This document shows, piece after piece, positions 12,620-32,055 of a stretch of 64,000 nucleotides of DNA. A program made the translations under genes and the position numbers. The stretch's first letter is position 1. Every line of letters begins with the position of its first letter. The notes under the pieces were generated by a model. The model was not told where the DNA came from, did no database searches, and worked only from the letters and a program-made list of their open reading frames with translations. Origin of the DNA: Manihot esculenta (lineage: Eukaryota; Streptophyta; Magnoliopsida; Malpighiales; Euphorbiaceae). The stretch covers positions 28,201,526-28,265,525 of the forward strand of contig NC_035162.2 of assembly GCF_001659605.2 (NCBI RefSeq). Reading direction: 5' to 3'.

Positions 12620-14808
12620 AAAAAGGCGCCATACCCTAATAGTCTATTAGTCTATGGGCCCTCAAAACATAAGTTTAGGATCAATTTTAACGATAGATGA
12701 AGTTTGGTCAAAATAATTTAATATATAACACAACAATCACTCAAATAATCAAATCAGTTACTAGCTATCAGATATATAAATATATAGTCTCCACTTTCGC
12801 TTAAAAAAAATGAGTCTTCACGTGCAGATCCTATTATTATTGGCTTAAAGAAAATGAGTTTTCTCTTTCACAAAATGACTGACAATTCATAAGTTGCTGT
12901 TAAGATTGCTACCAATAAGGGTACTATCATTTCTTTTACTCTAGACAAAACATACCCTCTATAGTCAACAAAATAGATCTCAATAATTTGAATAATGAGC
13001 AAGCTCCAATATATCAAAAAGTTACAAGCTACTCTCAAGCAATACAAAACTCAAGAGAGGTATCATTCATGATTCCTAGAAAAAGGAAAGAAACTTTCAT
13101 TGATACCCCAAGAGCTTGGACAGAAGCGATTCATATACGATCCAAAGAAAAGGTCGAGTTTGAGGAAGAAGAGTCCTCAGAAAATGCTCCAAAAAACGTC
13201 GACTAGAAGCTGGTACAGACTATTCAAAGGTACCATAAGGAGCAAAAAAAGGATTACGATATAGATGATGTCTCACCTCTTTCAGAAAAGATTTTGGCAG
13301 AGACAACTCCTAAGTTTAGACAAGTGTCGTCTTATGTCATATAAATATAGCATATAGTTTCGTTTATGATATTTCCAAGCTACGATGCGTTCTTTCAGAC
13401 ATCGCCTTATGCTATCTCAAGGTATCGTTATAAATTACCCCAATTGGCATGCCAATTCCCCTCTCAGCTACTAGCTTCCAAGTTAAACATTTTAGGTACT
13501 TTGTACATGCTCATATTATATAATTAGAATAATGCCAACTTATAAAACAATTATCATTATTTTTATTTCTCATCTCATTTGCATATTGGACAATCATTCA
13601 TATATTCTCATACAATCACATGCATACATTTAATGTGAGGCATTTCAATTGCTTAATACTAAGCCAACATCATATTTTTTCTTATTGCACCTCAATTCAA
13701 TAAGAAAATAGTCAATTGAGCATACAAGGTTGCTGCCCAACTAAAATAGACACATTTCATAATATTTAAATACATTTGCCATGCAAATTCAATGCCATAT
13801 CTTCAAGGCATATTTTTGTCCTATATTGTAGTCACGTTTTTGAAATTTTAAACGTCTAATTCACTTATGATCTCTTCATAAAAATTGTTCTTCTATATCT
13901 TAACTTTTCAACAAGCTAATATTCACCCCATTTGGACCACTAAAACTCATGTTATGCTATAATATATCAAGGCTACCCACAGACCTAGGTAACCAATATT
14001 AAAGTTATATTTTTCACATATTCTATTTTTGACAACCAATTAGATAAAGGTAAAGATAGAATTGGGTAAAGTTGTCTTCTAATACCTTTTAATCCTATGT
14101 CTTAAGTTTACTTTGAATCAAGGTTTAGGTGATTTGGACATCTATAACTCCATTTATGACTCAATAAATTCAAACTGCCCATAGGACACAATCTCATTGT
14201 TCAAACAGTATATGTAATTATAAATTATGATTAAATGATATAGAATTGGGCTTTACTTCGTCCATGAAAGTTTTAAATTATTTTCTTACGGCTCTAAAGA
14301 ATCTAGAATTATGCAATTTGAATATCTATAACTCAACTTATATTATTTTATTTACAGACTACCATATGCTCAGTTATAGGATCTGATTGATCCAAATTTT
14401 AAATTCTAACATCAAAATCGGTCCCTTCCTGATAGAATTAGGCCTATATGTCTCATAAAAGTTCTAAGTCTATGTCTCAAGATTAATTTAGTTCCTGTAT
14501 TATATTATTTGGACATTTCTACATCAAGTTATGGCTTGATAACTATAGACTGTCCAACTAAATACTAGAAATTCCAGCAACATTGGAAATATTTTTATTC
14601 ATTATTAATCCAACAAATATCAAATCATGCAAATCATTCATACTTACATATTCATAATCAAGAAAACATATTCACACAAAGAACTAATAGTTTCAATATA
14701 ATAAAAGAGTTCGTATGTATAAACTTTTTTACCTAGTTAAAGATCTTCTTTTTCACTTTCAATTCACTTCCTCCTTCTCCTTTCCTTTAGAAGATCCAAC
14801 TCCTAACT
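12620..14808. other. AT-rich intergenic region
   Basis: There is no recognised gene. A 72-codon plus-strand frame (12988-13206, Lys/Glu-rich) is followed at about 13265-13330 by 'PLSEKILAETTPKF'-like coding, which vaguely recalls the front of Tat-lineage gag; this is weak. The 14030-14580 stretch is AT-rich, repeat-like text ('GGACATCTATAACTC', 'GAATATCTATAACTC', 'GGACATTTCTACATC') with imperfect recurrence. Confidence 0.4.
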
Positions 14809-15628
14809 CCACTTGTCCTTCAAAAGTAAAGAAAATAATAATAAATCAATACATTATTTTTTTTTATTTTTGCATATAATGAAATGGATTATGGTTTCCT
14901 CAAACTAGTATTAACTTACTCTTACTCTTTCTCTTTCTTATCCTAAAGTCATGATTTACCTAAACTTTTCCCTTGAAAATCTTCTTGCTCTTGGTTCCTT
15001 TCTTCAATTTTAAACTTGCTATGGTATTTATGTGAAGTGAAAATTGTTAGAAAACCCAAAGATTACTGTAATCCAAAACTACATAGCGGAAGAAAAATCT
15101 ATGTTTCTCCTTTCAGAATCCGAGTGTTTCGTTTAATTCGAAAGGAATAATAAAAGACTAACTTTTTAGACTTGACGAAAAGGGACTTTTTTGGACTTAT
15201 GGTGCTGCTTCTGAAACGAACACCCGAAATGGTATCCATAAACTTTTCCGTCTATAGTGCTAGCTCTCTCAATGAATGGATTAGTTATGTGCTCCCCAAT
15301 CTGCAATCCATAAAAACAATCACCAAAAACCTTACTCCCGCAATTCAAAGAAAGTCTTTTATTCATTTTTTCAGTCTTTTCGTTTTCTACACTTCTTTTC
15401 GTAAAAAAGTTGTGTTTATAACCAGCTATCACAATATTGCAGATACTCATATATCTTTTCAAAAGAAAACGAAAAGCCCTTTATCTATAACAGTTACAAA
15501 TAGACTGTAGATATTTTAAATGTTATTATCTTATAATAACAAATAATTAATATTAATAATAATAATAATAACATCTTTATTATTATTAATTATACTAATG
15601 GGCTCTTAGTCCATTAATATGACATAAC
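14809..15628. repeat. 820-bp host segment, left copy flanking the viral insertion
   Basis: This segment is repeated at 31236-32055 in direct orientation at a constant offset of 16,427. I saw no differences in the stretches compared. It ends ...GACATAAC immediately before viral sequence at 15629. It is not viral: the viral unit-unit junction at 28695 lacks it. It includes overlapping antisense short frames (15166-15462 and 15172-15510) without domains, and a TAA/AAT-rich microsatellite-like stretch at about 15530-15600. Confidence 0.95.
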
Positions 15629-15656
15629 TAGGCAAGATTGCGCTTGCTTCCCCTAT

Positions 15657-15669
15657 TGGTATCAGAGCC
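15657..15669 (+). other. Viral minus-strand primer site (tRNA-iMet), unit 1
   Basis: TGGTATCAGAGCC, the perfect complement of the initiator tRNA-Met 3' end, which defines position 1 in caulimovirid numbering. It lies 126 bases before the polyprotein ATG. The preceding 15629-15655 is repeated at 23317-23343. Confidence 0.95.
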
Positions 15670-15782
15670 TAGGTTGAACCCGATCCATAACTCTTAGTGA
15701 AACCCAAGTCGCGTTTCCTGTTGCCAGAAAACCATAGTTGTTAGGCGTGGTGGAGTAAATCGTTGACAGTGATCTAAGAAAA

Positions 15783-18700
15783 ATGGAAAGGATATTTAAC
15801 TCAATCTCTGGTAATTCTAGGAGATCTAGCTCATCTAGCTCCTCTAGGTCTATTATCTCAAAAAATAAAAATAAAAATAAAGAAATATTATTAGCAGCCG
15901 ATATAGATACTAGTTTACAAAATTGGAAATTACCTCCTGTCTCCTCAGATCTGATCTACAGAACTCCTTTTAAACTTCGATCTGATTACATAGTGAAAAC
16001 TGTAGAGCAGGCTACTCCAGTTCATGGAAACTTACAATCAATGAGTTTATTATCAGAAGAACTCATTCGAAAGCATCAAGAGAAATACTTATTCCTTCAT
16101 ATAGGAATGGTACAGGTAGCGGTAAAACCCGCTACTAGATTGGGGCTTAATACAGCCGCTATGCTCTGTGTCAGAGACAAAAGACACAATAAGTTCAGTG
16201 ACTCCTTATTAGGAGTAGTGGAATCCTCTCTCTGTGATGGGCCAATCTTTTTCCAATGTTACCCGAATCTTACTTTGTCATTATCCGATCCACACATAAT
16301 GAAAACTCTTATTCTGGATATAAAGACAATGGGGTATGACATGGTACCAGGATCAGAAAATCTAATTCTAATTTATAGAATTCATTACAAAGCAATGAAC
16401 ACAGTAGTTCCTAATTTGAGGGACAGTGCCACAAAGTTAGTCTCTCCAAAAGGGACGACTACTTTATTTCTGACTAATATGTCAAAAGGGAATTTAATAG
16501 TTCCCAAACCAATCCAATGGGATCAGGTTAATTTACCTGATAGCTGGCTTCTAGAAGAAGCAGTACCTCCCAAAAAGGAGGAATCAACCACTGTTCAATC
16601 TATTATGCAGTCAAGTGAAGGAGCGGTTGCTATCACCTTCAGCAGAAGCAGAAGTGTTTCTGACAGAAGATCAATGACGGAGTCGTTCTTGTCAGAACCA
16701 TTACCTCCCAGGACATCGGTCTCAGTACCAGTCCTGAGAAGTACTTCAGTGATTGGGCTCCAAAGATCTGAAGAACAAGTGGCCAAGCCTGTGTACACAA
16801 GGCCACAAAGCCCAATAAGGCCTCAAAGCCCAACCCCTTCAGATATGGGCTATGATGCAGAAAGTTTGATTTCAAAGTCCTTTAAAATCATGCTGCTAGA
16901 AACAGAAGAAGAACCATTTAATAAATGGTTTCAAATGGAACTTTCTCTCAAAGAACAGAAAATGTGGAACAGAAAGTATGAACTATACAAAACCCAAAAA
17001 CAGGGAAGTAAAGACTTTCCTGGGTTCCTCAAACACTGCTTCTCCATACTGAAAAGGCCTTACCCAAACCTAGAAGATCCTTCCTTTTTAACCACCCTTG
17101 AATCTCATTATAAGACCTTCATAACTTCTCGAAATAAAATCCTCAAAGAAGTGCATCCACCCTTGACCGACATAATGTACCAACCTACAGAGAACACCAA
17201 AGTAGAATGCATTCCTTTTTCCCATGACCCTTCAGAAAACCCAGCAGCTAAACAACAAAACTACACAAATCTTAGCCTCCATACTATTGGACAGCAGCTG
17301 AATCGAGTTGAAAATCAAGTATCAAAAATAGCAGCTCAACCAAAGGACATTCTTCCAAACAGGGACATAGCAGAATCTTCTACAGGACTAAAAATAGAAG
17401 AAAAGGTGCTATTCAAACCAATGGATAGCAAACCCCTTGGTATCAAACTGAACAAAAATGAGGATATGCTGGAAGAATTAACAAAAAGGCTATCTAAGCT
17501 AGGTATAAAAGGAGATGATAAAAAGAAGGAAGAGGGAAAATTGAAAGCTATTGCTCCATTAACAATGGAGTCAGAAGCAGAAGAAAAATCAGATACAGAT
17601 CACGAGTTAATTCAACTCGAACAGATGCTAAAAGAAACTGAACCAGCAGAAGTTAACAGGATAAAATATCCTAAAACTAGAGCAACAATGGAGTTAAAGC
17701 CATACTATCCAAGACCTTCGCCAATAAATCTGCAATTTGAAGATACAGGTTACAATTACATGCAGTATGATGGAACTTCAATAGTCGAATGGAATATTGA
17801 TGGACTATCCGATTATCAAATCAAAAATGTCCTTCAATATATGACTATGTATGCTACTGCGAGTAGAGCTAAGGGTAATGATGACCCTAGCACAGCTAAA
17901 GCCCTAATAGCAGGGTTTGGTGGCCAACTTAAAGGTTGGTGGGACTTCGCAGTCTCTACAGAAGGAAAGGAGATAATATTCAAAATGGTTAAACAAGAAG
18001 GCACCCAGCAAGTCCCAGATGTGGTTAATACCCTATTATATACTATAGGGTTACACTTTATCGGATCAGTAAATATGCTGATCGATAGAGCCCAAGAGCA
18101 GTTAATTAATCTGCGATGCCCGGATCTATCACATTTTAAATGGTATAAAGATACCTTCTTCTCTTTAGTGTTTATAAGAGAAGATAGCAATAATAGTGTT
18201 TGGAAAGAAAAGTTCTTGGCAGGATTACCGGCACTATTTGCAGAAAGAGTAAGGGATCAAATACGAAGCAAACATAACGGTAATATACCGTATCATGATT
18301 ATACATATGGCGAATTAGCCTCTGAAGTAGTCACCGCAGGTGTCTCTCTTTGTAATGAATTAAAAATTCATAAGCAGATGAAGAAAGAGCGCTTTCATGG
18401 TAAACAAATTCTTGGAAGCTTTTGTGACCAGTATGGCATTCAACCTTTAAAATTTCCGTCCACGAAATTTCGAGGGGGTAGGGGAGAGCCGACACACAAG
18501 CAGGCACACAAACCATACAAACCCTACAAGAAAAACAGGCGCTTATATTACAAGAAACCCTGGAAAGAAAAGGGAAAACCTGTAAAGGTTAACAACCCAG
18601 AGAAGGGAAGAAAGAGGCCTGATCAGAGCAAAGCAGAGAAAACTATAGTCTGCTACAGATGTGGAAAAAGAGGACATTATGCCAACAAATGTCGAGTGAA

Positions 18701-21275
18701 GCAGCAAATACAGGCATTGACTATAGATGAAGACTTAAAAGAAGCATTAGCAAAAATCTTGCTAAACGAAACAGACTCTGAACAGGAGACAATGGAAATC
18801 AATGCAGTAGACTATACCACTGAAGAGGAAAGCAGCACAGAAGTAGAAGAGCACCAGAAAGAGGATTGTGATGGACAATGTGATTACTATAAATCACTAT
18901 GTGCGATGAATGGTCTTATGGTGTTAACCAAAGAGGATAATTTCATCCTCGATTTAATAGATAACATCGAAGATCCAGAGAAGAAGAGAGAGAAACTAGA
19001 GACTTATATTGATCTCTACAAAAATACAGGGGTAACGACCCCTGTACAGACTCAGCAATCTGAGAGAAACCAGTCTCCATATAATCTAAAAGAGATACTG
19101 GAAAGAATTAAAAATTCCAAAAATCAGAAAGAGCCAACAGTGGCAGAATTACGTTCAGAACTCAACTCAGTAAAAACTGAGATTAGAGAGTTAAAAGAAA
19201 GAATAGGTGTTTTAGAGCTGTTAAATGAACAGCAGCAATTAGCCATAGAAGAACAAGAGCTAGATGGAGAAACAAAAGATTTAAATAATCTCCATTATAT
19301 CAACATGGCAGACAGGGTAATAACCCATAAATGGCACACCAGGGTGACTATAGTAGTACACAAGGAGTGGGTGTTTGAAACCAATGCCTTGATCGACTCT
19401 GGAGCTGATCTTAACTGTATTAATGAAGGACTAGTTCCTTCAAAGTACTTTTCAAAGACACTCGAAGAATTGCATACAGCGGATGGAAGCAAGATGTCGG
19501 TAAGATACAAATTAAACAATACTGCCATCTGCAATCAAGGTACATGCTTTGAGATCCCCTTTCTTATGGTCAAAGGATTATCTCATCCTGTCATTTTAGG
19601 GAATCCCTTTTTACATATGCTATACCCTATTAGGCAGATAACTAAAGAAGGGATAAGTACAGAGATAAATGGAAAAGTAATCACTTTTCATTTTACTTCT
19701 CAACCAAAATTAAAACAAATAGATGTGTTAAAAAACACAATAGAAAGTAAGACTAAGTTTATTAACTCTTTAAGACAAGAAGTTGTCTATAAAAGCATAG
19801 ACCAAAGGTTAAAAGAACCTAGAATGCAACAAAGGATTAAAGAAGTCCAGGAAGAGTTAACAAGGAGCATTTGTGCTGAAAGCCCCGATGCTTTCTGGTC
19901 TAGGAAAAAACATGTGGTAAATTTGCCATATGAGCCTGATTTCTCAGAAAAGGCTATTCCTACAAAGGCCAGGCCCATTGCAATGGGACAAAGGCATTTA
20001 GAGATTTGTAAAAAAGAAGTTGCTGAGCTAGAGGCTAAAGGGTTAATTAGAAAAAGTGATAGCCCATGGAGTTGTCCGGCCTTTTATGTAGAAAATGCAG
20101 CCGAGTTGGAAAGAGGAGTACCCAGACTAGTCATAAACTATAAGCCCTTAAATAAGGCGCTTAGATGGGTTAGATATCCTCTACCTAATAAAAGAGACTT
20201 GCTAAATAGGCTTTATGAAGCCACAGTGTTCTCTAAATTTGATATGAAGTCTGGATACTGGCAAATCCAGATTGCAGAAGAGGATAAGTATAAAACAGCA
20301 TTCACTGTGCCTTTTGGGCATTATGAATGGAATGTCATGCCCTTTGGACTAAAAAATGCCCCTTCTGAATTTCAGAAAATTATGAATGAAATTTTTAACG
20401 TTTATTCAGCGTTTTCAATTGTTTATATTGATGATGTCCTAATCTTTTCCAGGACAATAGATCAGCACTTTAAGCATTTAAAAATGTTTGAGAAAATCGT
20501 TAAAATAAACGGTTTAGTTGTTTCTGCAAAGAAGATAAAAATCTTCCAAACAAAAGTAAGGTTTTTGGGTCATAACATCTTTGAAGGAACCATCATCCCA
20601 ATAGACAGAGCGATAGAATTCGCTAGTAAATTTCCAGATGAAATAAGAGAAAAAACCCAACTTCAGAGATTCTTAGGAAGTCTGAATTATGTCTCTGATT
20701 TTTATAAAAATTTAGCCCAGGATGCTAAACCATTGTTTCAAAGGCTTAGAAAGAATCCTCCTGAATGGACAAATGAATGCACGATAGCTGTAAAGAAAAT
20801 TAAGGATAGGGTAAAAACTCTACCTTGTTTAGCAATTCCACACCCAGAATCTTTTAAGATTGTAGAAACTGATGCTTCTGATAAAGGTTATGGAGGAATC
20901 CTTAAACAAAGGATGAATGATAAAGAAACTTTAGTCCGATTTACTAGTGGAATCTGGGTTGGACCAAGAGTAAATTACTCTACGGTTAAGAAAGAAATCT
21001 TAGCAATTGTTTTATGCGTACAAAAATTTGAATCTGATTTATTAAATCAGAAATTCCTAATAAGGATTGATTGTAAAAGTGCTAAGGAAATACTCCTTAA
21101 AGATGTTAAAAACATTGCATCCAAACAGATATTTGCTCGATGGCAAGCAATTCTATCTGTTTTTTATTTTGATATTGAGTTTATAAAAGGAGAATTTAAT
21201 TCATTACCTGATTTTCTAACAAGAGAATTTCTTACAGGAAATGAGTTCAAATACTCCGGTGAAAAGGCCATTTGA
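15783..21275 (+). CDS. Viral ORF1 polyprotein MP-CP-PR-RT-RH, unit 1 (intact)
   Basis: 1830-aa uninterrupted frame. Residues about 50-260 form a 30K-superfamily movement domain. Residues about 365-900 are the capsid region, with a basic C-terminal tail at about 905-955 and a CCHC zinc knuckle at 957-970. An acidic, coiled-coil-like stretch (about 1100-1170) precedes the aspartic protease with D-S-G-A at 1205-1208. Reverse transcriptase follows, with catalytic Y-I-D-D at 1548-1551. RNase H begins at the catalytic Asp 1697 (E-T-D-A-S). No integrase is present, as in all Caulimoviridae. The start is the first in-frame ATG after the primer site. The last 35 bases overlap ORF2. All inspected catalytic motifs are present, so the frame could be functional; nothing here shows it is expressed. 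Confidence 0.95.
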   Translation: MERIFNSISGNSRRSSSSSSSRSIISKNKNKNKEILLAADIDTSLQNWKLPPVSSDLIYRTPFKLRSDYIVKTVEQATPVHGNLQSMSLLSEELIRKHQEKYLFLHIGMVQVAVKPATRLGLNTAAMLCVRDKRHNKFSDSLLGVVESSLCDGPIFFQCYPNLTLSLSDPHIMKTLILDIKTMGYDMVPGSENLILIYRIHYKAMNTVVPNLRDSATKLVSPKGTTTLFLTNMSKGNLIVPKPIQWDQVNLPDSWLLEEAVPPKKEESTTVQSIMQSSEGAVAITFSRSRSVSDRRSMTESFLSEPLPPRTSVSVPVLRSTSVIGLQRSEEQVAKPVYTRPQSPIRPQSPTPSDMGYDAESLISKSFKIMLLETEEEPFNKWFQMELSLKEQKMWNRKYELYKTQKQGSKDFPGFLKHCFSILKRPYPNLEDPSFLTTLESHYKTFITSRNKILKEVHPPLTDIMYQPTENTKVECIPFSHDPSENPAAKQQNYTNLSLHTIGQQLNRVENQVSKIAAQPKDILPNRDIAESSTGLKIEEKVLFKPMDSKPLGIKLNKNEDMLEELTKRLSKLGIKGDDKKKEEGKLKAIAPLTMESEAEEKSDTDHELIQLEQMLKETEPAEVNRIKYPKTRATMELKPYYPRPSPINLQFEDTGYNYMQYDGTSIVEWNIDGLSDYQIKNVLQYMTMYATASRAKGNDDPSTAKALIAGFGGQLKGWWDFAVSTEGKEIIFKMVKQEGTQQVPDVVNTLLYTIGLHFIGSVNMLIDRAQEQLINLRCPDLSHFKWYKDTFFSLVFIREDSNNSVWKEKFLAGLPALFAERVRDQIRSKHNGNIPYHDYTYGELASEVVTAGVSLCNELKIHKQMKKERFHGKQILGSFCDQYGIQPLKFPSTKFRGGRGEPTHKQAHKPYKPYKKNRRLYYKKPWKEKGKPVKVNNPEKGRKRPDQSKAEKTIVCYRCGKRGHYANKCRVKQQIQALTIDEDLKEALAKILLNETDSEQETMEINAVDYTTEEESSTEVEEHQKEDCDGQCDYYKSLCAMNGLMVLTKEDNFILDLIDNIEDPEKKREKLETYIDLYKNTGVTTPVQTQQSERNQSPYNLKEILERIKNSKNQKEPTVAELRSELNSVKTEIRELKERIGVLELLNEQQQLAIEEQELDGETKDLNNLHYINMADRVITHKWHTRVTIVVHKEWVFETNALIDSGADLNCINEGLVPSKYFSKTLEELHTADGSKMSVRYKLNNTAICNQGTCFEIPFLMVKGLSHPVILGNPFLHMLYPIRQITKEGISTEINGKVITFHFTSQPKLKQIDVLKNTIESKTKFINSLRQEVVYKSIDQRLKEPRMQQRIKEVQEELTRSICAESPDAFWSRKKHVVNLPYEPDFSEKAIPTKARPIAMGQRHLEICKKEVAELEAKGLIRKSDSPWSCPAFYVENAAELERGVPRLVINYKPLNKALRWVRYPLPNKRDLLNRLYEATVFSKFDMKSGYWQIQIAEEDKYKTAFTVPFGHYEWNVMPFGLKNAPSEFQKIMNEIFNVYSAFSIVYIDDVLIFSRTIDQHFKHLKMFEKIVKINGLVVSAKKIKIFQTKVRFLGHNIFEGTIIPIDRAIEFASKFPDEIREKTQLQRFLGSLNYVSDFYKNLAQDAKPLFQRLRKNPPEWTNECTIAVKKIKDRVKTLPCLAIPHPESFKIVETDASDKGYGGILKQRMNDKETLVRFTSGIWVGPRVNYSTVKKEILAIVLCVQKFESDLLNQKFLIRIDCKSAKEILLKDVKNIASKQIFARWQAILSVFYFDIEFIKGEFNSLPDFLTREFLTGNEFKYSGEKAI
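17956..17972 (+). other. Purine tract in capsid region, probable plus-strand primer
   Basis: CTACAGAAGGAAAGGAG is purine-rich and is exactly the 17 bases found at both ends of unit 2 (23341-23357 and 31022-31038). Caulimovirid plus-strand synthesis starts at purine tracts and leaves a discontinuity there. The match between tract and breakpoint is what supports the call. Confidence 0.7.
21236..21240 (+). promoter_or_regulatory. Candidate 3' splice site before ORF2, unit 1
   Basis: CTAAC (branch-like, 21216-21220), then a TTTCTTACAG/G acceptor with AG at 21236-21237, three bases before the ORF2 ATG. The phase matches the leader donor at 23042. Predicted from consensus only. Confidence 0.6.
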
Positions 21276-22404
21276 TGACATGACACCCACGCCGGTTAAA
21301 GAATCGGATCGGGTTAGAGAAGATGCTTATAAAATAAGTATCAAACCAGTAAACGAGAAAGAGGTAAATTACCCATATATTCCTATCAGCTTTTACACCA
21401 TGAATCCGATTGAAAAAAGGTATGAAAACCTTAATCCTTGGGAAATAGCTGATTATTATACTGAACATCATTCGGGAGCACCATTCCTCCCAAAGACCTT
21501 TGAGTATTATCAAGCTATACTCTCTGAAACTAGGTCAGTAGAGATTATCCCTACAGAAAGAACAGGTCATCAGTGGGCATACAGTAAATTCCTAATAAAG
21601 AATGTTATTACCAGCGAACAATGGGGTGATTCGCTGTTAAGACAGAAGGAATTACAATATGGTAGACCAAAATGGTATAGTTATTTTGACTATATCCAAG
21701 CCTGGACAGGAGCTCTCTTATATGAGAATCGACAGAAGAAATTCAGCTGGTTTCTCCAATTTCAGCTTGAAAAGGAAATTAAAGAATTTCCTCCCTGGTT
21801 TCATGATTGGTTTTTTAACTGGGGAATTTTTCCAATTATGTTACCTGACAAGGTCCGATCTGCTTATAAGCAGTTTACTGAGGTTAATGAATCTCTTGAA
21901 AACCCCAGATTGGATTTTACAATTCAATACAGAGTTCCATGGATAGCTAAATGGGATTATATCCTGACCACTAAACGATCTAAAAAATTTGAAGAATTTA
22001 CTATTGCCAATATAAAGTGGTTAACTCGAAGAGTCATGGTTAAATGGTGGGATAAATTTGATTTCTTTGGACCATCATCTGTCTATTACTGCAGAGGACT
22101 TATTCAACTGGTTAAACAACCAGAAAAGGCAAAAGCATCTGACAAGTCTAAACTGTCGAAATTACTGAAAGAATTCTTTCATTCCCTGCCAAAAGAAGAA
22201 TTGAGGAAACGATTGTCATCTGCACTAGAAGAATTAAGTGACCATGAAGCTTCTAGTGAAAGGCCTAAGGACAAGGGAGAGTGTTCCAGATCAAAGTTTA
22301 AACGCTCTAAAAGCAGCGATTCATCCGATGAAGACATGTTGTCAGACTCTCTGTTCCAAGACAGCCAGAATCCTGAAGATCCAGATGAGGCCACTTGGCC
22401 ATAA
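21241..22404 (+). CDS. Viral ORF2, unit 1, function unknown
   Basis: 387-aa frame in +1 relative to ORF1, overlapping its last 35 bases. The protein is unusually rich in Trp, Tyr and Phe over residues 40-290 ('WEIADYY', 'PPWFHDWFFNW', 'WLTRRVMVKWWDKFDFF') and ends in a Lys/Ser/Glu/Asp-rich tail of about 80 residues that looks disordered. It has no zinc knuckle, no enzyme motif and no signal peptide. An ORF2 of unknown role after the polyprotein is typical of florendoviruses. A strong acceptor directly before the ATG suggests it may be made from a spliced RNA rather than only by reinitiation. The copy at 26626-27789 encodes the same protein. Confidence 0.85.
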   Translation: MSSNTPVKRPFDDMTPTPVKESDRVREDAYKISIKPVNEKEVNYPYIPISFYTMNPIEKRYENLNPWEIADYYTEHHSGAPFLPKTFEYYQAILSETRSVEIIPTERTGHQWAYSKFLIKNVITSEQWGDSLLRQKELQYGRPKWYSYFDYIQAWTGALLYENRQKKFSWFLQFQLEKEIKEFPPWFHDWFFNWGIFPIMLPDKVRSAYKQFTEVNESLENPRLDFTIQYRVPWIAKWDYILTTKRSKKFEEFTIANIKWLTRRVMVKWWDKFDFFGPSSVYYCRGLIQLVKQPEKAKASDKSKLSKLLKEFFHSLPKEELRKRLSSALEELSDHEASSERPKDKGECSRSKFKRSKSSDSSDEDMLSDSLFQDSQNPEDPDEATWP

Positions 22405-22675
22405 TTATGCTTGTACTCTTATGTATAATTATGAGTGTACTTTTTATATTTTGTCCAGATGTAATAAGTGTGTTTTGTCCTTATCTGTTCATGATTCCAG
22501 CTGTAACGGAAAAGAACGTAGTGGACGATGGGGCCCATAGCGCACCCGCACTACATCTTAGCCGAAAGGAATCCTTTGCTTTATACTTTTAGTTAGTGCG
22601 CCACGCGTCCTACTAACGCTGGTTAGTTTAGATTTTAAGATAAGGAAGAATCTTTCAACTTGCACAACGAGTTGA
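22405..22675 (+). promoter_or_regulatory. Viral intergenic region / promoter upstream part, unit 1
   Basis: Non-coding 270 bp between ORF2 and the TATA box, in the place of the pregenomic promoter. It contains the stretch around 22520-22620 with GGGCCC, a GC-rich 'GCGCCACGCGTCC' (22597-22609) and direct 'GTTAGT' repeats. Short frames here (for example 22395-22592) are not credible genes. Confidence 0.6.
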
Positions 22676-22683
22676 TATAAATA
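22676..22683 (+). promoter_or_regulatory. Viral TATA box, unit 1
   Basis: TATAAATA, followed about 30 bases on by a pyrimidine-rich TTCTTTTTTTCGG start region. The first ATG downstream of the likely start is that of the leader ORF at 22781. Transcription would read into unit 2. Confidence 0.8.
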
Positions 22684-22780
22684 GAGGTAAGATGAGAAAG
22701 GGGAGATAGGTTCTTTTTTTCGGAATTCTCTCTGAACTCCTTGCTTCTCTTTGCTTTTGTATTGTACTACTAAGCTTTGA

Positions 22781-23080
22781 ATGAAAAATACTTTTTCTAA
22801 ATTTGAATCTCGTTCTCTTGGAAAGAAATTGTCTCAGTTATCCTTAAAGTCTGAAACTGCCAAAATCTGCAGAAAAAGAAATCTTCCGGTCAACAATCTA
22901 ATCGGAGTACAAGACACACTTGGAGAACATACCGGCAAATTCGATTACTTGGTCTGGTATACTAAACCAGAGTCAGCCGAAATCCCTTTCTCATCCATCA
23001 AACCAACAGGTTGGGGAGTTGAATTCGCAGAAATTGATCAAGTAAGTAATTTATGTCTTATCATATTACTAAAGCTATAG
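22781..23080 (+). CDS. Viral leader ORF A, unit 1
   Basis: 99-aa frame starting at the first ATG after the expected transcription start, basic at the N-terminus (K/R-rich residues 1-35), with no known domain. A consensus 5' splice site CAA/GTAAGT falls exactly at a codon boundary after residue 87. Splicing to 26623 (unit 2) or the equivalent 21238 would continue in frame into ORF2. Rice tungro bacilliform virus uses a comparable short-ORF splice to express its last ORF. Left unspliced, the frame stops at 23080. It recurs at 28159-28458. Confidence 0.6.
   Translation: MKNTFSKFESRSLGKKLSQLSLKSETAKICRKRNLPVNNLIGVQDTLGEHTGKFDYLVWYTKPESAEIPFSSIKPTGWGVEFAEIDQVSNLCLIILLKL
23042..23047 (+). promoter_or_regulatory. 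Candidate 5' splice site in leader, unit 1
   Basis: GTAAGT preceded by CAA, followed by AATTT: a near-perfect plant donor. Paired with the acceptor at 26621-26622 it would define a 3,581-base intron at this locus. Confidence 0.65.
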
Positions 23081-23286
23081 AACATTTACTCTTTTTAGAT
23101 TTAACTAATAGAAACGAAGTAGTGCAATTTAAGACTGCCATTATAGCTGAAGGTAGCGAATTGTTCACTTATCATTCTGTTAATCATAATGAACACTGTG
23201 ACTGCCGAGAATATCAACGAACTTTGGCTTTGTTTAATGTTTTATTAAATTATTTAAATCAATTAATTAGAAATAATAATTTTTAA
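23053..23286 (+). CDS. Viral leader ORF B, unit 1
   Basis: 77-aa frame between leader ORF A and the primer site, overlapping the end of ORF A by 28 bases. It has no recognised domain; a His-Cys-Asp-Cys cluster lies near residue 49. It is also present in unit 2 at 28431-28664. It may be a real small protein, or simply the open inside of the predicted intron. Confidence 0.4.
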   Translation: MSYHITKAIEHLLFLDLTNRNEVVQFKTAIIAEGSELFTYHSVNHNEHCDCREYQRTLALFNVLLNYLNQLIRNNNF

Positions 23287-23369
23287 TAGACTACCTGTTG
23301 AACACCTCTTGCTAAGTAGGCAAGATTGCGCTTGCTTCCCCTACAGAAGGAAAGGAGATAATATTCAAA

Positions 23370-26300
23370 ATGGTTAAACAAGAAGGCACCCAGCAAGTCC
23401 CAGATGTGGTTAATACCCTATTATATACTATAGGGTTACACTTTATCGGATCAGTAAATATGCTGATCGATAGAGCCCAAGAGCAGTTAATTAATCTGCG
23501 ATGCCCGGATCTATCACATTTTAAATGGTATAAAGATACCTTCTTCTCTTTAGTGTTTATAAGAGAAGACAGCAATAATAGTGTCTGGAAAGAAAAGTTC
23601 TTGGCAGGATTACCGGCACTATTTGCAGAAAGAGTAAGGGATCAAATACGAAGCAAACATAACGGTAATATACCGTATCATGATTATACATATGGCGAAT
23701 TAGCCTCTGAAGTAGTCACCGCAGGTGTCTCTCTTTGTAATGAATTAAAAATTCATAAGCAGATGAAGAAAGAGCGCTTTCATGGTAAACAAATTCTTGG
23801 AAGCTTTTGTGACCAGTATGGCATTCAACCTTTAAAATTTCCGTCCACGAAATTTCGAGGGGGTAGGGGAGAGCCGACACACAAGCAGGCACACAAACCA
23901 TACAAACCCTACAAGAAAAACAGGCGCTTATATTACAAGAAACCCTGGAAAGAAAAGGGAAAACCTGTAAGGGTTAACAACCCAGAGAAGGGAAGAAAGA
24001 GGCCTGATCAGAGCAAAGCAGAGAAAACTATAGTCTGCTACAGATGTGGAAAAAGAGGACATTATGCCAACAAATGTCGAGTGAAGCAGCAAATACAGGC
24101 ATTGACTATAGATGAAGACTTAAAAGAAGCATTAGCAAAAATCTTGCTAAACGAAACAGACTCTGAACAGGAGACAATGGAAATCAATGCAGTAGACTAT
24201 ACCACTGAAGAGGAAAGCAGCACAGAAGTAGAAGAGCACCAGAAAGAGGATTGTGATGGACAATGTGATTACTATAAATCACTATGTGCGATGAATGGTC
24301 TTATGGTGTTAACCAAAGAGGATAATTTCATCCTCGATTTAATAGATAACATCGAAGATCCAGAGAAGAAGAGAGAGAAACTAGAGACTTATATTGATCT
24401 CTACAAAAATACAGGGGTAACGACCCCTGTACAGACTCAGCAATCTGAGAGAAACCAGTCTCCATATAATCTAAAAGAGATACTGGAAAGAATTAAAAAT
24501 TCCAAAAATCAGAAAGAGCCAACAGTGGCAGAATTACGTTCAGAACTCAACTCAGTAAAAACTGAGATTAGAGAGTTAAAAGAAAGAATAGGTGTTTTAG
24601 AGCTGTTAAATGAACAGCAGCAATTAGCCATAGAAGAACAAGAGCTAGATGGAGAAACAAAAGATTTAAATAATCTCCATTATATCAACATGGCAGACAG
24701 GGTAATAACCCATAAATGGCACACCAGGGTGACTATAGTAGTACACAAGGAGTGGGTGTTTGAAACCAATGCCTTGATCGACTCTGGAGCTGATCTTAAC
24801 TGTATTAATGAAGGACTAGTTCCTTCAAAGTACTTTTCAAAGACACTCGAAGAATTGCATACAGCGGATGGAAGCAAGATGTCGGTAAGATACAAATTAA
24901 ACAATACTGCCATCTGCAATCAAGGTACATGCTTTGAGATCCCCTTTCTTATGGTCAAAGGATTATCTCATCCTGTCATTTTAGGGAATCCCTTTTTACA
25001 TATGCTATACCCTATTAGGCAGATAACTAAAGAAGGGATAAGTACAGAGATAAATGGAAAAGTAATCACTTTTCATTTTACTTCTCAACCAAAATTAAAA
25101 CAAATAGATGTGTTAAAAAACACAATAGAAAGTAAGACTAAGTTTATTAACTCTTTAAGACAAGAAGTTGTCTATAAAAGCATAGACCAAAGGTTAAAAG
25201 AACCTAGAATGCAACAAAGGATTAAAGAAGTCCAGGAAGAGTTAACAAGGAGCATTTGTGCTGAAAGCCCCGATGCTTTCTGGTCTAGGAAAAAACATGT
25301 GGTAAATTTGCCATATGAGCCTGATTTCTCAGAAAAGGCTATTCCTACAAAGGCCAGGCCCATTGCAATGGGACCAAGGCATTTAGAAATTTGTAAAAAA
25401 GAAGTTGCTGAGTTAGAGGCTAAAGGGTTAATTAGAAAAAGTGATAGCCCATGGAGTTGTCCGGCCTTTTATGTAGAAAATGCAGCCGAGTTGGAAAGAG
25501 GAGTACCCAGACTAGTCATAAACTATAAGCCCTTAAATAAGGCGCTTAGATGGGTTAGATATCCTCTACCTAATAAAAGAGACTTGCTAAATAGGCTTTA
25601 TGAAGCCACAGTGTTCTCTAAATTTGATATGAAGTCTGGATACTGGCAAATCCAGATTGCAGAAGAGGATAAGTATAAAACAGCATTCACTGTGCCTTTT
25701 GGGCATTATGAATGGAATGTCATGCCCTTTGGACTAAAAAATGCCCCTTCTGAATTTCAGAAAATTATGAATGAAATTTTTAACGTTTATTCAGCGTTTT
25801 CAATTGTTTATATTGATGATGTCCTAATCTTTTCCAGGACAATAGATCAGCACTTTAAGCATTTAAAAATGTTTGAGAAAATCGTTAAAATAAACGGTTT
25901 AGTTGTTTCTGCAAAGAAGATAAAAATCTTCCAAACAAAAGTAAGGTTTTTGGGTCATAACATCTTTGAAGGAACCATCATCCCAATAGACAGAGCGATA
26001 GAATTCGCTAGTAAATTTCCAGATGAAATAAGAGAAAAAACCCAACTTCAGAGATTCTTAGGAAGTCTGAATTATGTCTCTGATTTTTATAAAAATTTAG
26101 CCCAGGATGCTAAACCATTGTTTCAAAGGCTTAGAAAGAATCCTCCTGAATGGACAAATGAATGCACGATAGCTGTAAAGAAAATTAAGGATAGGGTAAA
26201 AACTCTACCTTGTTTAGCAATTCCACACCCAGAATCTTTTAAGATTGTAGAAACTGATGCTTCTGATAAAGGTTATGGAGGAATCCTTAAACAAAGGATG

Positions 26301-26660
26301 AATGATAAAGAAACTTTAGTCCGATTTACTAGTGGAATCTGGGTTGGACCAAGAGTAAATTACTCTACGGTTAAGAAAGAAATCTTAGCAATTGTTTTAT
26401 GCGTACAAAAATTTGAATCTGATTTATTAAATCAGAAATTCCTAATAAGGATTGATTGTAAAAGTGCTAAGGAAATACTCCTTAAAGATGTTAAAAACAT
26501 TGCATCCAAACAGATATTTGCTCGATGGCAAGCAATTCTATCTGTTTTTTATTTTGATATTGAGTTTATAAAAGGAGAATTTAATTCATTACCTGATTTT
26601 CTAACAAGAGAATTTCTTACAGGAAATGAGTTCAAATACTCCGGTGAAAAGGCCATTTGA
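23370..26660 (+). CDS. Viral ORF1, unit 2, 3' part (CP-PR-RT-RH)
   Basis: 1096-aa frame, the continuation of ORF1 from mid-capsid to the end. It lacks the movement domain because unit 2 was opened at 23341, inside the capsid region. The first Met used is at 23370. It keeps the zinc knuckle, protease D-S-G-A, RT Y-I-D-D and RNase H. It differs from unit 1 by a few residues, for example Lys to Arg just after the basic capsid tail and Gln to Pro at the RT start. The missing 5' part is at 28849-31038. Confidence 0.93.
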   Translation: MVKQEGTQQVPDVVNTLLYTIGLHFIGSVNMLIDRAQEQLINLRCPDLSHFKWYKDTFFSLVFIREDSNNSVWKEKFLAGLPALFAERVRDQIRSKHNGNIPYHDYTYGELASEVVTAGVSLCNELKIHKQMKKERFHGKQILGSFCDQYGIQPLKFPSTKFRGGRGEPTHKQAHKPYKPYKKNRRLYYKKPWKEKGKPVRVNNPEKGRKRPDQSKAEKTIVCYRCGKRGHYANKCRVKQQIQALTIDEDLKEALAKILLNETDSEQETMEINAVDYTTEEESSTEVEEHQKEDCDGQCDYYKSLCAMNGLMVLTKEDNFILDLIDNIEDPEKKREKLETYIDLYKNTGVTTPVQTQQSERNQSPYNLKEILERIKNSKNQKEPTVAELRSELNSVKTEIRELKERIGVLELLNEQQQLAIEEQELDGETKDLNNLHYINMADRVITHKWHTRVTIVVHKEWVFETNALIDSGADLNCINEGLVPSKYFSKTLEELHTADGSKMSVRYKLNNTAICNQGTCFEIPFLMVKGLSHPVILGNPFLHMLYPIRQITKEGISTEINGKVITFHFTSQPKLKQIDVLKNTIESKTKFINSLRQEVVYKSIDQRLKEPRMQQRIKEVQEELTRSICAESPDAFWSRKKHVVNLPYEPDFSEKAIPTKARPIAMGPRHLEICKKEVAELEAKGLIRKSDSPWSCPAFYVENAAELERGVPRLVINYKPLNKALRWVRYPLPNKRDLLNRLYEATVFSKFDMKSGYWQIQIAEEDKYKTAFTVPFGHYEWNVMPFGLKNAPSEFQKIMNEIFNVYSAFSIVYIDDVLIFSRTIDQHFKHLKMFEKIVKINGLVVSAKKIKIFQTKVRFLGHNIFEGTIIPIDRAIEFASKFPDEIREKTQLQRFLGSLNYVSDFYKNLAQDAKPLFQRLRKNPPEWTNECTIAVKKIKDRVKTLPCLAIPHPESFKIVETDASDKGYGGILKQRMNDKETLVRFTSGIWVGPRVNYSTVKKEILAIVLCVQKFESDLLNQKFLIRIDCKSAKEILLKDVKNIASKQIFARWQAILSVFYFDIEFIKGEFNSLPDFLTREFLTGNEFKYSGEKAI
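26621..26625 (+). promoter_or_regulatory. Candidate 3' splice site before ORF2, unit 2
   Basis: Same context as unit 1: branch-like CTAAC, TTTCTTACAG with AG at 26621-26622, then GAA and the ORF2 ATG at 26626. It is the acceptor reachable from the unit 1 promoter and donor. Confidence 0.6.
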
Positions 26661-27789
26661 TGACATGACACCCACGCCGGTTAAAGAATCGGATCGGGTT
26701 AGAGAAGATGCTTATAAAATAAGTATCAAACCAGTAAACGAGAAAGAGGTAAATTACCCATATATTCCTATCAGCTTTTACACCATGAATCCGATTGAAA
26801 AAAGGTATGAAAACCTTAATCCTTGGGAAATAGCTGATTATTATACTGAACATCATTCGGGAGCACCATTCCTCCCAAAGACCTTTGAGTATTATCAAGC
26901 TATACTCTCTGAAACTAGGTCAGTAGAGATTATCCCTACAGAAAGAACAGGTCATCAGTGGGCATACAGTAAATTCCTAATAAAGAATGTTATTACCAGC
27001 GAACAATGGGGTGATTCGCTGTTAAGACAGAAGGAATTACAATATGGTAGACCAAAATGGTATAGTTATTTTGACTATATCCAAGCCTGGACAGGAGCTC
27101 TCTTATATGAGAATCGACAGAAGAAATTCAGCTGGTTTCTCCAATTTCAGCTTGAAAAGGAAATTAAAGAATTTCCTCCCTGGTTTCATGATTGGTTTTT
27201 TAACTGGGGAATTTTTCCAATTATGTTACCTGACAAGGTCCGATCTGCTTATAAGCAGTTTACTGAGGTTAATGAATCTCTTGAAAACCCCAGATTGGAT
27301 TTTACAATTCAATACAGAGTTCCATGGATAGCTAAATGGGATTATATCCTGACCACTAAACGATCTAAAAAATTTGAAGAATTTACTATTGCCAATATAA
27401 AGTGGTTAACTCGAAGAGTCATGGTTAAATGGTGGGATAAATTTGATTTCTTTGGACCATCATCTGTCTATTACTGCAGAGGACTTATTCAACTGGTTAA
27501 ACAACCAGAAAAGGCAAAAGCATCTGACAAGTCTAAACTGTCGAAATTACTGAAAGAATTCTTTCACTCCCTGCCAAAAGAAGAATTGAGGAAACGATTG
27601 TCATCTGCACTAGAAGAATTAAGTGACCATGAAGCTTCTAGTGAAAGGCCTAAGGACAAGGGAGAGTGTTCCAGATCAAAGTTTAAACGCTCTAAAAGCA
27701 GCGATTCATCCGATGAAGACATGTTGTCAGACTCTCTGTTCCAAGACAGCCAGAATCCTGAAGATCCAGATGAGGCCACTTGGCCATAA
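26626..27789 (+). CDS. Viral ORF2, unit 2
   Basis: Second copy of the 387-aa aromatic-rich ORF2, identical in protein to 21241-22404 with at least one silent base change (near 27566). It overlaps the end of the unit 2 ORF1 by 35 bases. It lies downstream of the unit 1 TATA box and leader. Confidence 0.85.
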   Translation: MSSNTPVKRPFDDMTPTPVKESDRVREDAYKISIKPVNEKEVNYPYIPISFYTMNPIEKRYENLNPWEIADYYTEHHSGAPFLPKTFEYYQAILSETRSVEIIPTERTGHQWAYSKFLIKNVITSEQWGDSLLRQKELQYGRPKWYSYFDYIQAWTGALLYENRQKKFSWFLQFQLEKEIKEFPPWFHDWFFNWGIFPIMLPDKVRSAYKQFTEVNESLENPRLDFTIQYRVPWIAKWDYILTTKRSKKFEEFTIANIKWLTRRVMVKWWDKFDFFGPSSVYYCRGLIQLVKQPEKAKASDKSKLSKLLKEFFHSLPKEELRKRLSSALEELSDHEASSERPKDKGECSRSKFKRSKSSDSSDEDMLSDSLFQDSQNPEDPDEATWP

Positions 27790-28060
27790 TTATGCTTGTA
27801 CTCTTATGTATAATTATGAGTGTACTTTTTATATTTTGTCCAGATGTAATAAGTGTGTTTTGTCCTTATCTGTTCATGATTCCAGCTGTAACGGAAAAGA
27901 ACGTAGTGGACGATGGGGCCCATAGCGCACCCGCACTACATCTTAGCCGAAAGGAATCCTTTGCTTTATACTTTTAGTTAGTGCGCCACGCGTCCTACTA
28001 ACGCTGGTTAGTTTAGATTTTAAGATAAGGAAGAATCTTTCAACTTGCACAACAAGTTGA

Positions 28061-28068
28061 TATAAATA
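28061..28068 (+). promoter_or_regulatory. Viral TATA box, unit 2
   Basis: TATAAATA in the same context as unit 1. Transcripts would run through the primer site into the truncated 5' ORF1 and out into host DNA. Confidence 0.75.
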
Positions 28069-28158
28069 GAGGCAAGATGAGAAAGGGGAGACAGGTTCTT
28101 TTTTCGGAATTCTCTCTGAACTCCTTGCTTCTCTTTGCTTTGTACTACTAAGCTTTGA

Positions 28159-28458
28159 ATGAAAAATACTTTTTCTAAATTTGAATCTCGTTCTCTTGGA
28201 AAGAAATTGTCTCAGTTATCCTTAAAGTCTGAAACTGCCAAAATCTGCAGAAAAAGAAATCTTCCGGTCAACAATCTAATCGGAGTACAAGACACACTTG
28301 GAGAACATACCGGCAAATTCGATTACTTGGTCTGGTATACTAAACCAGAGTCAGCCGAAATCCCTTTCTCATCCATCAAACCAACAGGTTGGGGAGTTGA
28401 ATTCGCAGAAATTGATCAAGTAAGTAATTTATGTCTTATCATATTACTAAAGCTATAG
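28159..28458 (+). CDS. Viral leader ORF A, unit 2
   Basis: Same 99-aa protein as 22781-23080. The leader just before it is 7 bases shorter than in unit 1 (a TTGTAT-like repeat unit and one T are missing). The splice donor GTAAGT is at 28420-28425, but no ORF2 acceptor follows on this side within the viral DNA. Confidence 0.55.
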   Translation: MKNTFSKFESRSLGKKLSQLSLKSETAKICRKRNLPVNNLIGVQDTLGEHTGKFDYLVWYTKPESAEIPFSSIKPTGWGVEFAEIDQVSNLCLIILLKL

Positions 28459-28664
28459 AACATTTACTCTTTTTAGATTTAACTAATAGAAACGAAGTAG
28501 TGCAATTTAAGACTGCCATTATAGCTGAAGGTAGCGAATTGTTCACTTATCATTCTGTTAATCATAATGAACACTGTGACTGCCGAGAATATCAACGAAC
28601 TTTGGCTTTGTTTAATGTTTTGTTAAATTATTTAAATCAATTAATTAGAAATAATAATTTTTAA
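28431..28664 (+). CDS. Viral leader ORF B, unit 2
   Basis: Same 77-aa frame as 23053-23286, with no domain recognised. One silent A/G difference is visible near 28621. Confidence 0.4.
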   Translation: MSYHITKAIEHLLFLDLTNRNEVVQFKTAIIAEGSELFTYHSVNHNEHCDCREYQRTLALFNVLLNYLNQLIRNNNF

Positions 28665-28722
28665 TAGACTACCTGTTGAACACCTCTTGCTAAGTAGGCA
28701 AGATTGCGCTTGCTTCCCCTAT

Positions 28723-28735
28723 TGGTATCAAAGCC
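28723..28735 (+). other. Viral primer site, unit 2 (one mismatch)
   Basis: TGGTATCAAAGCC: the same site as unit 1 with one G to A change against the tRNA. Here the unit reads continuously through the primer site, showing that unit 2 was circular across this point. Confidence 0.9.
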
Positions 28736-28848
28736 TAGGTTGAACCCGATCCATAACTCTTAGTGAAACCCAAGTCGCGTTTCCTGTTGCCAGAAAACCA
28801 TAGTTGTTAGGCGTGGTGGAGTAAATCGTTGACAGTGATCTAAGAAAA

Positions 28849-31047
28849 ATGGAAAGGATATTTAACTCAATCTCTGGTAATTCTAGGAGATCTAGCTCAT
28901 CTAGCTCCTCTAGGTCTATTATCTCAAAAAATAAAAATAAAAATAAAGAAATATTATTAGCAGCCGATATAGATACTAGTTTACAAAATTGGAAATTACC
29001 TCCTGTCTCCTCAGATCTGATCTACAGAACTCCTTTTAAACTTCGATCTGATTACATAGTGAAAACTGTAGAGCAGGCTACTCCAGTTCATGGAAACTTA
29101 CAATCAATGAGTTTATTATCAGAAGAACTCATTCGAAAGCATCAAGAGAAATACTTATTCCTTCATATAGGAATGGTACAGGTAGCGGTAAAACCCGCTA
29201 CTAGATTGGGGCTTAATACAGCCGCTATGCTCTGTGTCAGAGACAAAAGACACAATAAGTTCAGTGACTCCTTATTAGGAGTAGTGGAATCCTCTCTCTG
29301 TGATGGGCCAATCTTTTTCCAATGTTACCCAAATCTTACTTTGTCATTATCCGATCCACACATAATGAAAACTCTTATTCTGGATATAAAGACAATGGGG
29401 TATGACATGGTACCAGGATCAGAAAATCTAATTCTAATTTATAGAATTCATTACAAAGCAATGAACACAGTAGTTCCTAATTTGAGGGACAGTGCCACAA
29501 AGTTAGTCTCTCCAAAAGGGACGACTACTTTGTTTCTGACTAATATGTCAAAAGGGAATTTAATAGTTCCCAAACCAATCCAATGGGATCAGGTTAATTT
29601 ACCTGATAGCTGGCTTCTAGAAGAAGCAGTACCTCCCAAAAAGGAGGAATCAACCACTGTTCAATCTATTATGCAGTCAAGTGAAGGAGCGGTTGCTATC
29701 ACCTTCAGCAGAAGCAGAAGTGTTTCTGACAGAAGATCAATGACGGAGTCGTTCTTGTCAGAACCATTACCTCCCAGGACATCGGTCTCAGTACCAGTCC
29801 TGAGAAGTACTTCAGTGATTGGGCTCCAAAGATCTGAAGAACAAGTGGCCAAGCCTGTGTACACAAGGCCACAAAGCCCAATAAGGCCTCAAAGCCCAAC
29901 CCCTTCAGATATGGGCTATGATGCAGAAAGTTTGATTTCAAAGTCCTTTAAAATCATGCTGCTAGAAACAGAAGAAGAACCATTTAATAAATGGTTTCAA
30001 ATGGAACTTTCTCTCAAAGAACAGAAAATGTGGAACAGAAAGTATGAACTATACAAAACCCAAAAACAGGGAAGTAAAGACTTTCCTGGGTTCCTCAAAC
30101 ACTGCTTCTCCATACTGAAAAGGCCTTACCCAAACCTAGAAGATCCTTCCTTTTTAACCACCCTTGAATCTCATTATAAGACCTTCATAACTTCTCGAAA
30201 TAAAATCCTCAAAGAAGTGCATCCACCCTTGACCGACATAATGTACCAACCTACAGAGAACACCAAAGTAGAATGCATTCCTTTTTCCCATGACCCTTCA
30301 GAAAACCCAGCAGCTAAACAACAAAACTACACAAATCTTAGCCTCCATACTATTGGACAGCAGCTGAATCGAGTTGAAAATCAAGTATCAAAAATAGCAG
30401 CTCAACCAAAGGACATTCTTCCAAACAGGGACATAGCAGAATCTTCTACAGGACTAAAAATAGAAGAAAAGGTGCTATTCAAACCAATGGATAGCAAACC
30501 CCTTGGTATCAAACTGAACAAAAATGAGGATATGCTGGAAGAATTAACAAAAAGGCTATCTAAGCTAGGTATAAAAGGAGATGATAAAAAGAAGGAAGAG
30601 GGAAAATTGAAAGCTATTGCTCCATTAACAATGGAGTCAGAAGCAGAAGAAAAATCAGATACAGATCACGAGTTAATTCAACTCAAACAGATGCTAAAAG
30701 AAACTGAACCAGCAGAAGTTAACAGGATAAAATATCCTAAAACTAGAGCAACAATGGAGTTAAAGCCATACTATCCAAGACCTTCGCCAATAAATCTGCA
30801 ATTTGAAGATACAGGTTACAATTACATGCAGTATGATGGAACTTCAATAGTCGAATGGAATATTGATGGACTATCCGATTATCAAATCAAAAATGTCCTT
30901 CAATATATGACTATGTATGCTACTGCGAGTAGAGCTAAGGGTAATGATGACCCTAGCACAGCTAAAGCCCTAATAGCAGGGTTTGGTGGCCAACTTAAAG
31001 GTTGGTGGGACTTCGCAGTCTCTACAGAAGGAAAGGAGTTCTTTTAA
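28849..31047 (+). pseudogene. Viral ORF1, unit 2, 5' part (MP and start of CP), truncated
   Basis: 732-aa frame equal to the first 730 residues of unit 1 ORF1, with a Glu to Lys change near residue 640. It is cut at 31038 where the inverted fragment begins and stops three codons later. It holds the complete movement domain and part of the capsid region. As integrated it cannot make the polyprotein. Confidence 0.93.
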
Positions 31048-31235
31048 GTCTTCATCTATAGTCAATGCCTGTATTTGCTGCTTCACTCGACATTTGTTGG
31101 CATAATGTCCTCTTTTTCCACATCTGTAGCAGACTATAGTTTTCTCTGCTTTGCTCTGATCAGGCCTCTTTCTTCCCTTCTCTGGGTTGTTAACCTTTAC
31201 AGGTTTTCCCTTTTCTTTCCAGGGTTTCTTGTAAT
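31039..31235 (-). repeat. Inverted viral fragment
   Basis: 197 bp that is the reverse complement of 18547-18743 (basic capsid tail and zinc knuckle). It joins unit 2's right end to the second copy of the host segment. It has no function of its own; it marks a rearranged junction. Confidence 0.95.
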
Positions 31236-32055
31236 CCACTTGTCCTTCAAAAGTAAAGAAAATAATAATAAATCAATACATTATTTTTTTTTATTTTTGC
31301 ATATAATGAAATGGATTATGGTTTCCTCAAACTAGTATTAACTTACTCTTACTCTTTCTCTTTCTTATCCTAAAGTCATGATTTACCTAAACTTTTCCCT
31401 TGAAAATCTTCTTGCTCTTGGTTCCTTTCTTCAATTTTAAACTTGCTATGGTATTTATGTGAAGTGAAAATTGTTAGAAAACCCAAAGATTACTGTAATC
31501 CAAAACTACATAGCGGAAGAAAAATCTATGTTTCTCCTTTCAGAATCCGAGTGTTTCGTTTAATTCGAAAGGAATAATAAAAGACTAACTTTTTAGACTT
31601 GACGAAAAGGGACTTTTTTGGACTTATGGTGCTGCTTCTGAAACGAACACCCGAAATGGTATCCATAAACTTTTCCGTCTATAGTGCTAGCTCTCTCAAT
31701 GAATGGATTAGTTATGTGCTCCCCAATCTGCAATCCATAAAAACAATCACCAAAAACCTTACTCCCGCAATTCAAAGAAAGTCTTTTATTCATTTTTTCA
31801 GTCTTTTCGTTTTCTACACTTCTTTTCGTAAAAAAGTTGTGTTTATAACCAGCTATCACAATATTGCAGATACTCATATATCTTTTCAAAAGAAAACGAA
31901 AAGCCCTTTATCTATAACAGTTACAAATAGACTGTAGATATTTTAAATGTTATTATCTTATAATAACAAATAATTAATATTAATAATAATAATAATAACA
32001 TCTTTATTATTATTAATTATACTAATGGGCTCTTAGTCCATTAATATGACATAAC
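31236..32055. repeat. 820-bp host segment, right copy
   Basis: Direct repeat of 14809-15628. After 32055 (…GACATAAC) the sequence goes on into ACATCAATAACG rather than viral DNA, so this side shows the continuous pre-insertion host sequence. TCC at the left edge is shared with the viral fragment end (microhomology). Confidence 0.95.

Follow-up and report, generated by a model that had tools for sequence, protein, structure and literature searches.

A predicted splice joining a conserved leader ORF to ORF2 in a florendovirus array of the cassava genome

How do florendoviruses express ORF2, the reading frame that follows their polyprotein? Only guesses have been published: leaky scanning was suggested in PMC4241990, and PMC5902531 presumes a subgenomic RNA or, as in rice tungro bacilliform virus (RTBV), a spliced pregenomic RNA, the sites of which it does not give in its available text. 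The question is raised by a viral array within 64,000 nucleotides of cassava (Manihot esculenta) DNA (contig NC_035162.2; hereafter the window, to which all positions refer), for which an initial annotation had predicted an mRNA joining a short leader ORF (ORF A) to ORF2, adding that nothing of the kind was known to have been described for florendoviruses. As to the idea, this last remark has to be corrected, since PMC5902531 had already conjectured it; as to the sites, it stands, and our full-text literature searches (subscription papers and supplements lying outside their scope) found neither a paper giving florendovirus splice sites nor one matching spliced transcripts of endogenous pararetroviruses. 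Exact junctions matter here because they allow a simple split-read search in existing plant RNA-seq.

The caulimovirid array (positions 15629–31038) consists of two genome copies that are 99.7–99.8% alike over their aligned stretches (Table 1). Copy 1 reads ORF1, ORF2, then the leader. When its ORF1 was searched against Pfam in four pieces, matches to MP, Caulimovir_coat_dom, zf-CCHC, RVP/Peptidase_A3, RVT_1 and RT_RNaseH were obtained, i.e., the order MP, coat, protease, RT, RNase H in one polyprotein. ORF2 lies in frame +1 relative to ORF1, the end of which it overlaps by 35 nt; its product falls in the 45–58 kDa range (mass estimated from length) and yields no Pfam match above the cut-off. 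Florendoviruses are described as having one MP-CP-AP-RT-RH1 polyprotein and, in another frame, an ORF2 without known homologue (Geering et al. 2014, PMC4241990). Judged on its sequence, and as far as the available text of that paper goes, the layout of copy 1 is the published one: the polyprotein layout, the other-frame ORF2, the tRNA-Met site and loci longer than one unit are all shared. Scans of viral contigs, bacterial and archaeal genomes and phage records gave no match; one search of solved structures gave none either, and another returned two matches only (E 0.78 and 0.94). AlphaFold models were unusably poor (mean pLDDT of 41.6 for ORF A and 46.8 for ORF2).

Table 1. Features of the viral array, with positions counted from the first letter of the window.
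Feature	Positions	Strand	Remarks
Copy 1	15629-23343		opened at tRNA-Met primer site; 27 nt repeated at its ends
tRNA-Met primer site TGGTATCAGAGC	15657..15668	+	identity as tRNA-Met site follows PMC4411674 (available text)
ORF1, copy 1	15783..21275	+	intact, 1830 aa; MP, coat domain, zinc knuckle, protease, RT, RNase H
TATAAAAGG, possible subgenomic promoter	21182..21190 (repeated identically from 26567 in copy 2)	+	59 nt before ORF2
Predicted acceptor and branch-like CTAAC, copy 1	21216..21237	+	AG 21236-21237
ORF2, copy 1	21241..22404	+	387 aa
TATA box of leader promoter	22676..22684	+	read from sequence; transcription probably starts near 22707
ORF A	22781..23080	+	99 aa; protein conserved in 3 relatives
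Predicted exon 1, coding part	22781..23041	+	261 nt = 87 codons, ends CAA
Predicted donor CAA/GTAAGT	23039..23047	+	last exon base 23041, GT at 23042-23043
Predicted intron	23042..26622	+	3581 nt here; 5884 nt on genome-length path (by arithmetic)
ORF B	23053..23286	+	77 aa; overlaps ORF A end; removed by predicted splice
Long leader stem, shunt-like	23116..23338 (23116-23147 paired with 23311-23338)	+	pair probabilities 0.42-0.89
Copy 2	23344-31038		opened at purine tract (CAGAAGGAAAGGAG); 14 nt repeated
Predicted acceptor and branch-like CTAAC, copy 2	26601..26622	+	the usable one at this locus; AG 26621-26622
ORF2, copy 2	26626..27789	+	387 aa; predicted exon 2 from 26623
ORF A of second leader	28159..28458	+	donor GT at 28420; no ORF2 downstream of that donor in the array

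The second and third units, which the initial annotation had kept separate, together form one permuted genome copy, opened at the purine tract. For this reason, we rejected the reading of the missing MP region in the second unit as a deletion or as a bipartite component. The two copies meet with a microhomology of 3 nt, and their junction (23343/23344) was likewise discarded as a splice scar, because the matching 5' stretch of copy 1 continues with TTGGTATC, not with GT, and because the CAG of unit 2 derives from the 3' side. Altogether, the array suggests the integration of DNA opened at strand discontinuities; the purine tract would then be the plus-strand primer, even though longer purine runs exist. 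On either side of the array, the host DNA carries a direct repeat of 821 bp (14808–15628 and 31235–32055), which is either a target duplication of very large size, produced perhaps when offset nicks underwent patch repair, or an assembly effect; its 100% identity suggests that the event is recent. To the right, a filler of 197 bp (31039–31235), an inverted copy of 18547–18743, adjoins the array. Further along, the arms of an inverted repeat (38015–63680) measure about 9.9 kb and are 91% identical; the end of each arm is formed by 2.2-kb direct repeats (99.2 and 99.8% identical) that adjoin TGGTATCAGAGC sites. The structure has the appearance of a pair of LTR retrotransposons inserted in opposing orientations and separated by a related segment. 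An Rfam scan of 14000–33000 gave no match.

The ORF A start, the donor, the CTAAC, the AG and both ORF2 starts lie exactly where the initial annotation had placed them, in letter-by-letter agreement with the DNA. Both ORF2 copies are preceded by TTTCTTACAG/GAA ATG (ATG at 21241 and 26626). Donor and acceptor are both in phase 0, again as annotated, so that the join would yield an in-frame product of 87 + 1 + 387 = 475 residues. The unit 1 promoter and donor precede the unit 2 acceptor, which is the right order for direct use; since no ORF2 follows the second donor in the array, only the path from 23042 to 26622 works directly here. By sequence and arithmetic, the arrangement is of the RTBV type: a donor in the first leader ORF and, in frame with it, an acceptor at the next ORF beyond the polyprotein.

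In the leader, the ORF A start is indeed, as the annotation had it, the first ATG after the presumed transcription start; another ATG (22692, 16 nt past the TATA box) would be relevant only if transcription began unusually early. In leader shuffles, an ATG-initiated ORF of at least 99 codons arose 2 times in 1000 and one of at least 77 codons 18 times in 1000. No ATG at all separates the ORF A start from that of ORF B (shuffle mean 3.2, P 0.017), so that exon 1 has a single start. ORF A and ORF B start in weak contexts (T at -3), ORF1 in a strong one (A at -3, G at +4). ORF B, which has no Pfam match, recurs at 28431–28664 with an identical protein. The long stem begins 35 nt past the ORF A stop, i.e., a leader ORF ends ahead of a stem-loop as in the RTBV scheme, and the total folding energy of the leader is ordinary (z -0.04 with 20 shuffles, -0.97 with 100). 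A similar shunt layout is reported for a peach florendovirus, with the difference that the primer site was placed there on the ascending arm (PMC5902531, available text), and a text search of the available part of PMC4241990 found no mention of leader ORFs.

Are the splice sites better than chance would provide? Each genome copy contains a single GTAAGT hexamer (a total of 2 for the array, against 5.3 expected from base composition). Scored with approximate plant matrices, the donor ranks third among 204 GTs and the acceptor fifth among 419 AGs of 22707–27789, and in copy 1 they rank seventh of 316 and sixth of 574, respectively. Because the acceptor sits within the coding sequence of ORF1 (REFLTGN), our null model left the protein unchanged and sampled codons according to the usage of the virus itself (20000 draws). 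Under this null, an AG fell at the same spot in 37.5% of the draws and an equal or better score in 4.0%, a strong and open phase-0 acceptor stood at most 30 nt from the ATG in 14%, and a CT[AG]A[CT] branch-like site appeared in the stretch searched in 56%. As for the donor, an equal or better phase-0 site arose anywhere in ORF A in 23% of the draws and a phase-0 GTAAGT in 4.9%. The joint chance of donor and acceptor is about 0.2–3% if the two are independent, a figure uncorrected for the pattern having been noticed first and tested later. These tests are suggestive, not decisive: the sites are only moderately unusual.

The four AGs of 22707–27789 that outscore the predicted acceptor (the best at 25837) bring in a different reading, in which the leader donor is joined mainly to other acceptors and tunes RNA levels as in cauliflower mosaic virus (CaMV), the fusion of ORF A with ORF2 being a minor or functionless by-product. 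CaMV does use several donors and acceptors, its P1P2 fusions are undetectable and their P2 part is dispensable (PMC4498817, available text). Against this, it is at the ORF2 acceptor, the one for which the join was translated, that a phase fit and a composition step are found, and we regard the reading as very improbable.

This composition step has a counterpart at the donor. Plant introns are AU-rich, and viral introns in plants are so too (PMC4498817, available text). Over 100 nt on each side, GC content falls from 0.43 to 0.26 at the donor and rises from 0.27 to 0.41 at the acceptor, and no 300-nt window of ORF1 is lower in GC than the 300 nt that lead up to the acceptor (3 of 516 windows equal them). 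Within copy 1, a drop as large as that of the donor is met at 105 of 7515 positions (7 of 308 GT sites), and a rise as large as that of the acceptor at 252 of 7515 (16 of 620 AG sites). Since both sites are also gene borders, these steps support splicing without proving it.

Protein conservation was examined on both sides of the join. A search with ORF A retrieved three relatives (95, 84 and 71% identity), all of which carry Q-V-S in frame at the donor, as far as protein letters tell, beside length changes of whole codons. Invariant columns number 59 of 88 before the donor and 7 of 12 after it, and the stop is kept, so that conservation does not drop past the donor; this tail may be conserved by the overlapping start of ORF B, or else the full-length ORF A protein may be produced too. 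Searches with ORF2 found 13 relatives in all, several of them fragments, including proteins of Sesamum, Rehmannia and cassava, none labelled as florendovirus; no ORF A match was detected among them (BLASTP, E up to 1). One of the 13 (P0004) reads N-F-L-Q-E-M before S-S, which at the level of protein letters fits CAG/GAA ATG. A cassava gene model (P0005) is ORF2-like from E-M-S-S; it was rejected as proof of acceptor use, its residues 2–62 resembling the antisense coat region (E 0.001).

The conservation of ORF A through to its own stop is also what would be expected if ORF A were an independent small protein, the donor incidental and ORF2 served by its own subgenomic RNA from TATAAAAGG, as TAV is by the CaMV 19S RNA. 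The short distance of this TATA-like element from ORF2, the own ATG of which is usable (G at -3), makes for a serious rival, and the possibility is named in PMC5902531 (available text). Yet the element lies inside the coding sequence of ORF1 and arises in 27.5% of codon-preserving draws, copy 1 holds 12 TATAWA motifs, and chance would have to account for the donor, for the matching phases and for the steps in composition. We deem a subgenomic origin unlikely. On a third route, ribosomes would pass from ORF1 into ORF2, either through a +1 frameshift or through termination-reinitiation in the overlap of the two. The relative frame and the 35 nt shared by the two ORFs would permit it, as would the fusion of the ORF2 domain to the polyprotein in Amborella B virus and B components (according to the available text). 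The frame of ORF2, assessed by eye, is however open over no more than about 50 nt upstream of the ORF1 stop, and such recoding strikes us as highly improbable. Plain leaky scanning to ORF2, the suggestion of PMC4241990 in its available text, looks implausible as well, given the 74 ATGs that precede ORF2 on the unspliced RNA of this locus and the 119 on the genome-length path.

The best single account of ORF2 expression is, in our view, a leader-to-distal-ORF splice of the tungrovirus type, which we consider somewhat more probable than not. A pregenomic RNA would start near 22707. Without splicing, it would be translated for ORF A and ORF B, both of which start in weak contexts, and then for ORF1, through leaky scanning or shunting. 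The host spliceosome would act on part of this RNA and join 23041 to 26623 (on a circular genome, it would reach the same acceptor about 5.9 kb away), thereby removing ORF B and ORF1, and the first ORF would then encode 475 residues: 87 from ORF A, one Glu and ORF2. The sites, phases and order given by the initial annotation hold, the mRNA itself staying a prediction; its account mentioned neither ORF B nor the competing TATA box before ORF2 nor the permuted second copy. Beside the sites, phases, order, ORF A conservation and GC steps observed at this locus, we infer the making and splicing of the RNA, the fraction spliced and the role of the product.

More tentatively, and with a little less than even confidence, we propose that leader genes (A, and probably B) are conserved in florendoviruses and that their ORF2 product is a two-exon protein, made of a conserved exon A domain (87 residues) spliced in frame onto ORF2, while the same domain is also produced alone as the 99-residue ORF A protein, a single host splice switching between the small protein and the fusion. 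It counts against the leader splice that some florendoviruses are reported to have the ORF2 domain within the polyprotein, so that exon A would be dispensable there. If the splice is real, the annotated ORF2 start would be incomplete and a conserved leader domain would so far have escaped notice; splicing would also occur outside the two caulimovirid genera in which it was described by 2015 (PMC4498817, available text).

Among known systems, CaMV is alike in that its 35S RNA is a caulimovirid pregenomic RNA with a leader donor and gives rise to fusion ORFs, but CaMV splices to an acceptor within ORF II and expresses its last ORF (TAV) from a separate 19S promoter (PMC4498817 and PMC2241666, available text). 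The closer precedent is the one named in the initial annotation, the splice of leader sORF1 to ORF IV in RTBV, which the literature confirms. As predicted for this locus, the mRNA for ORF IV (P4) uses a donor in the first leader ORF, which ends ahead of a stem, and an acceptor before the ORF following the polyprotein, and the fusion is in frame; the introns are of comparable size as well, with 6.3 kb in RTBV (PMC4498817) vs. 5.9 kb here on the genome-length path. The two differ in that the exonic part of the RTBV donor lies in the third codon of sORF1, whereas exon 1 would add 87 codons here, and in that splicing is demonstrated in RTBV and predicted in the cassava array. The predicted splice would vary the RTBV scheme by a far longer first exon, one conserved at the protein level.
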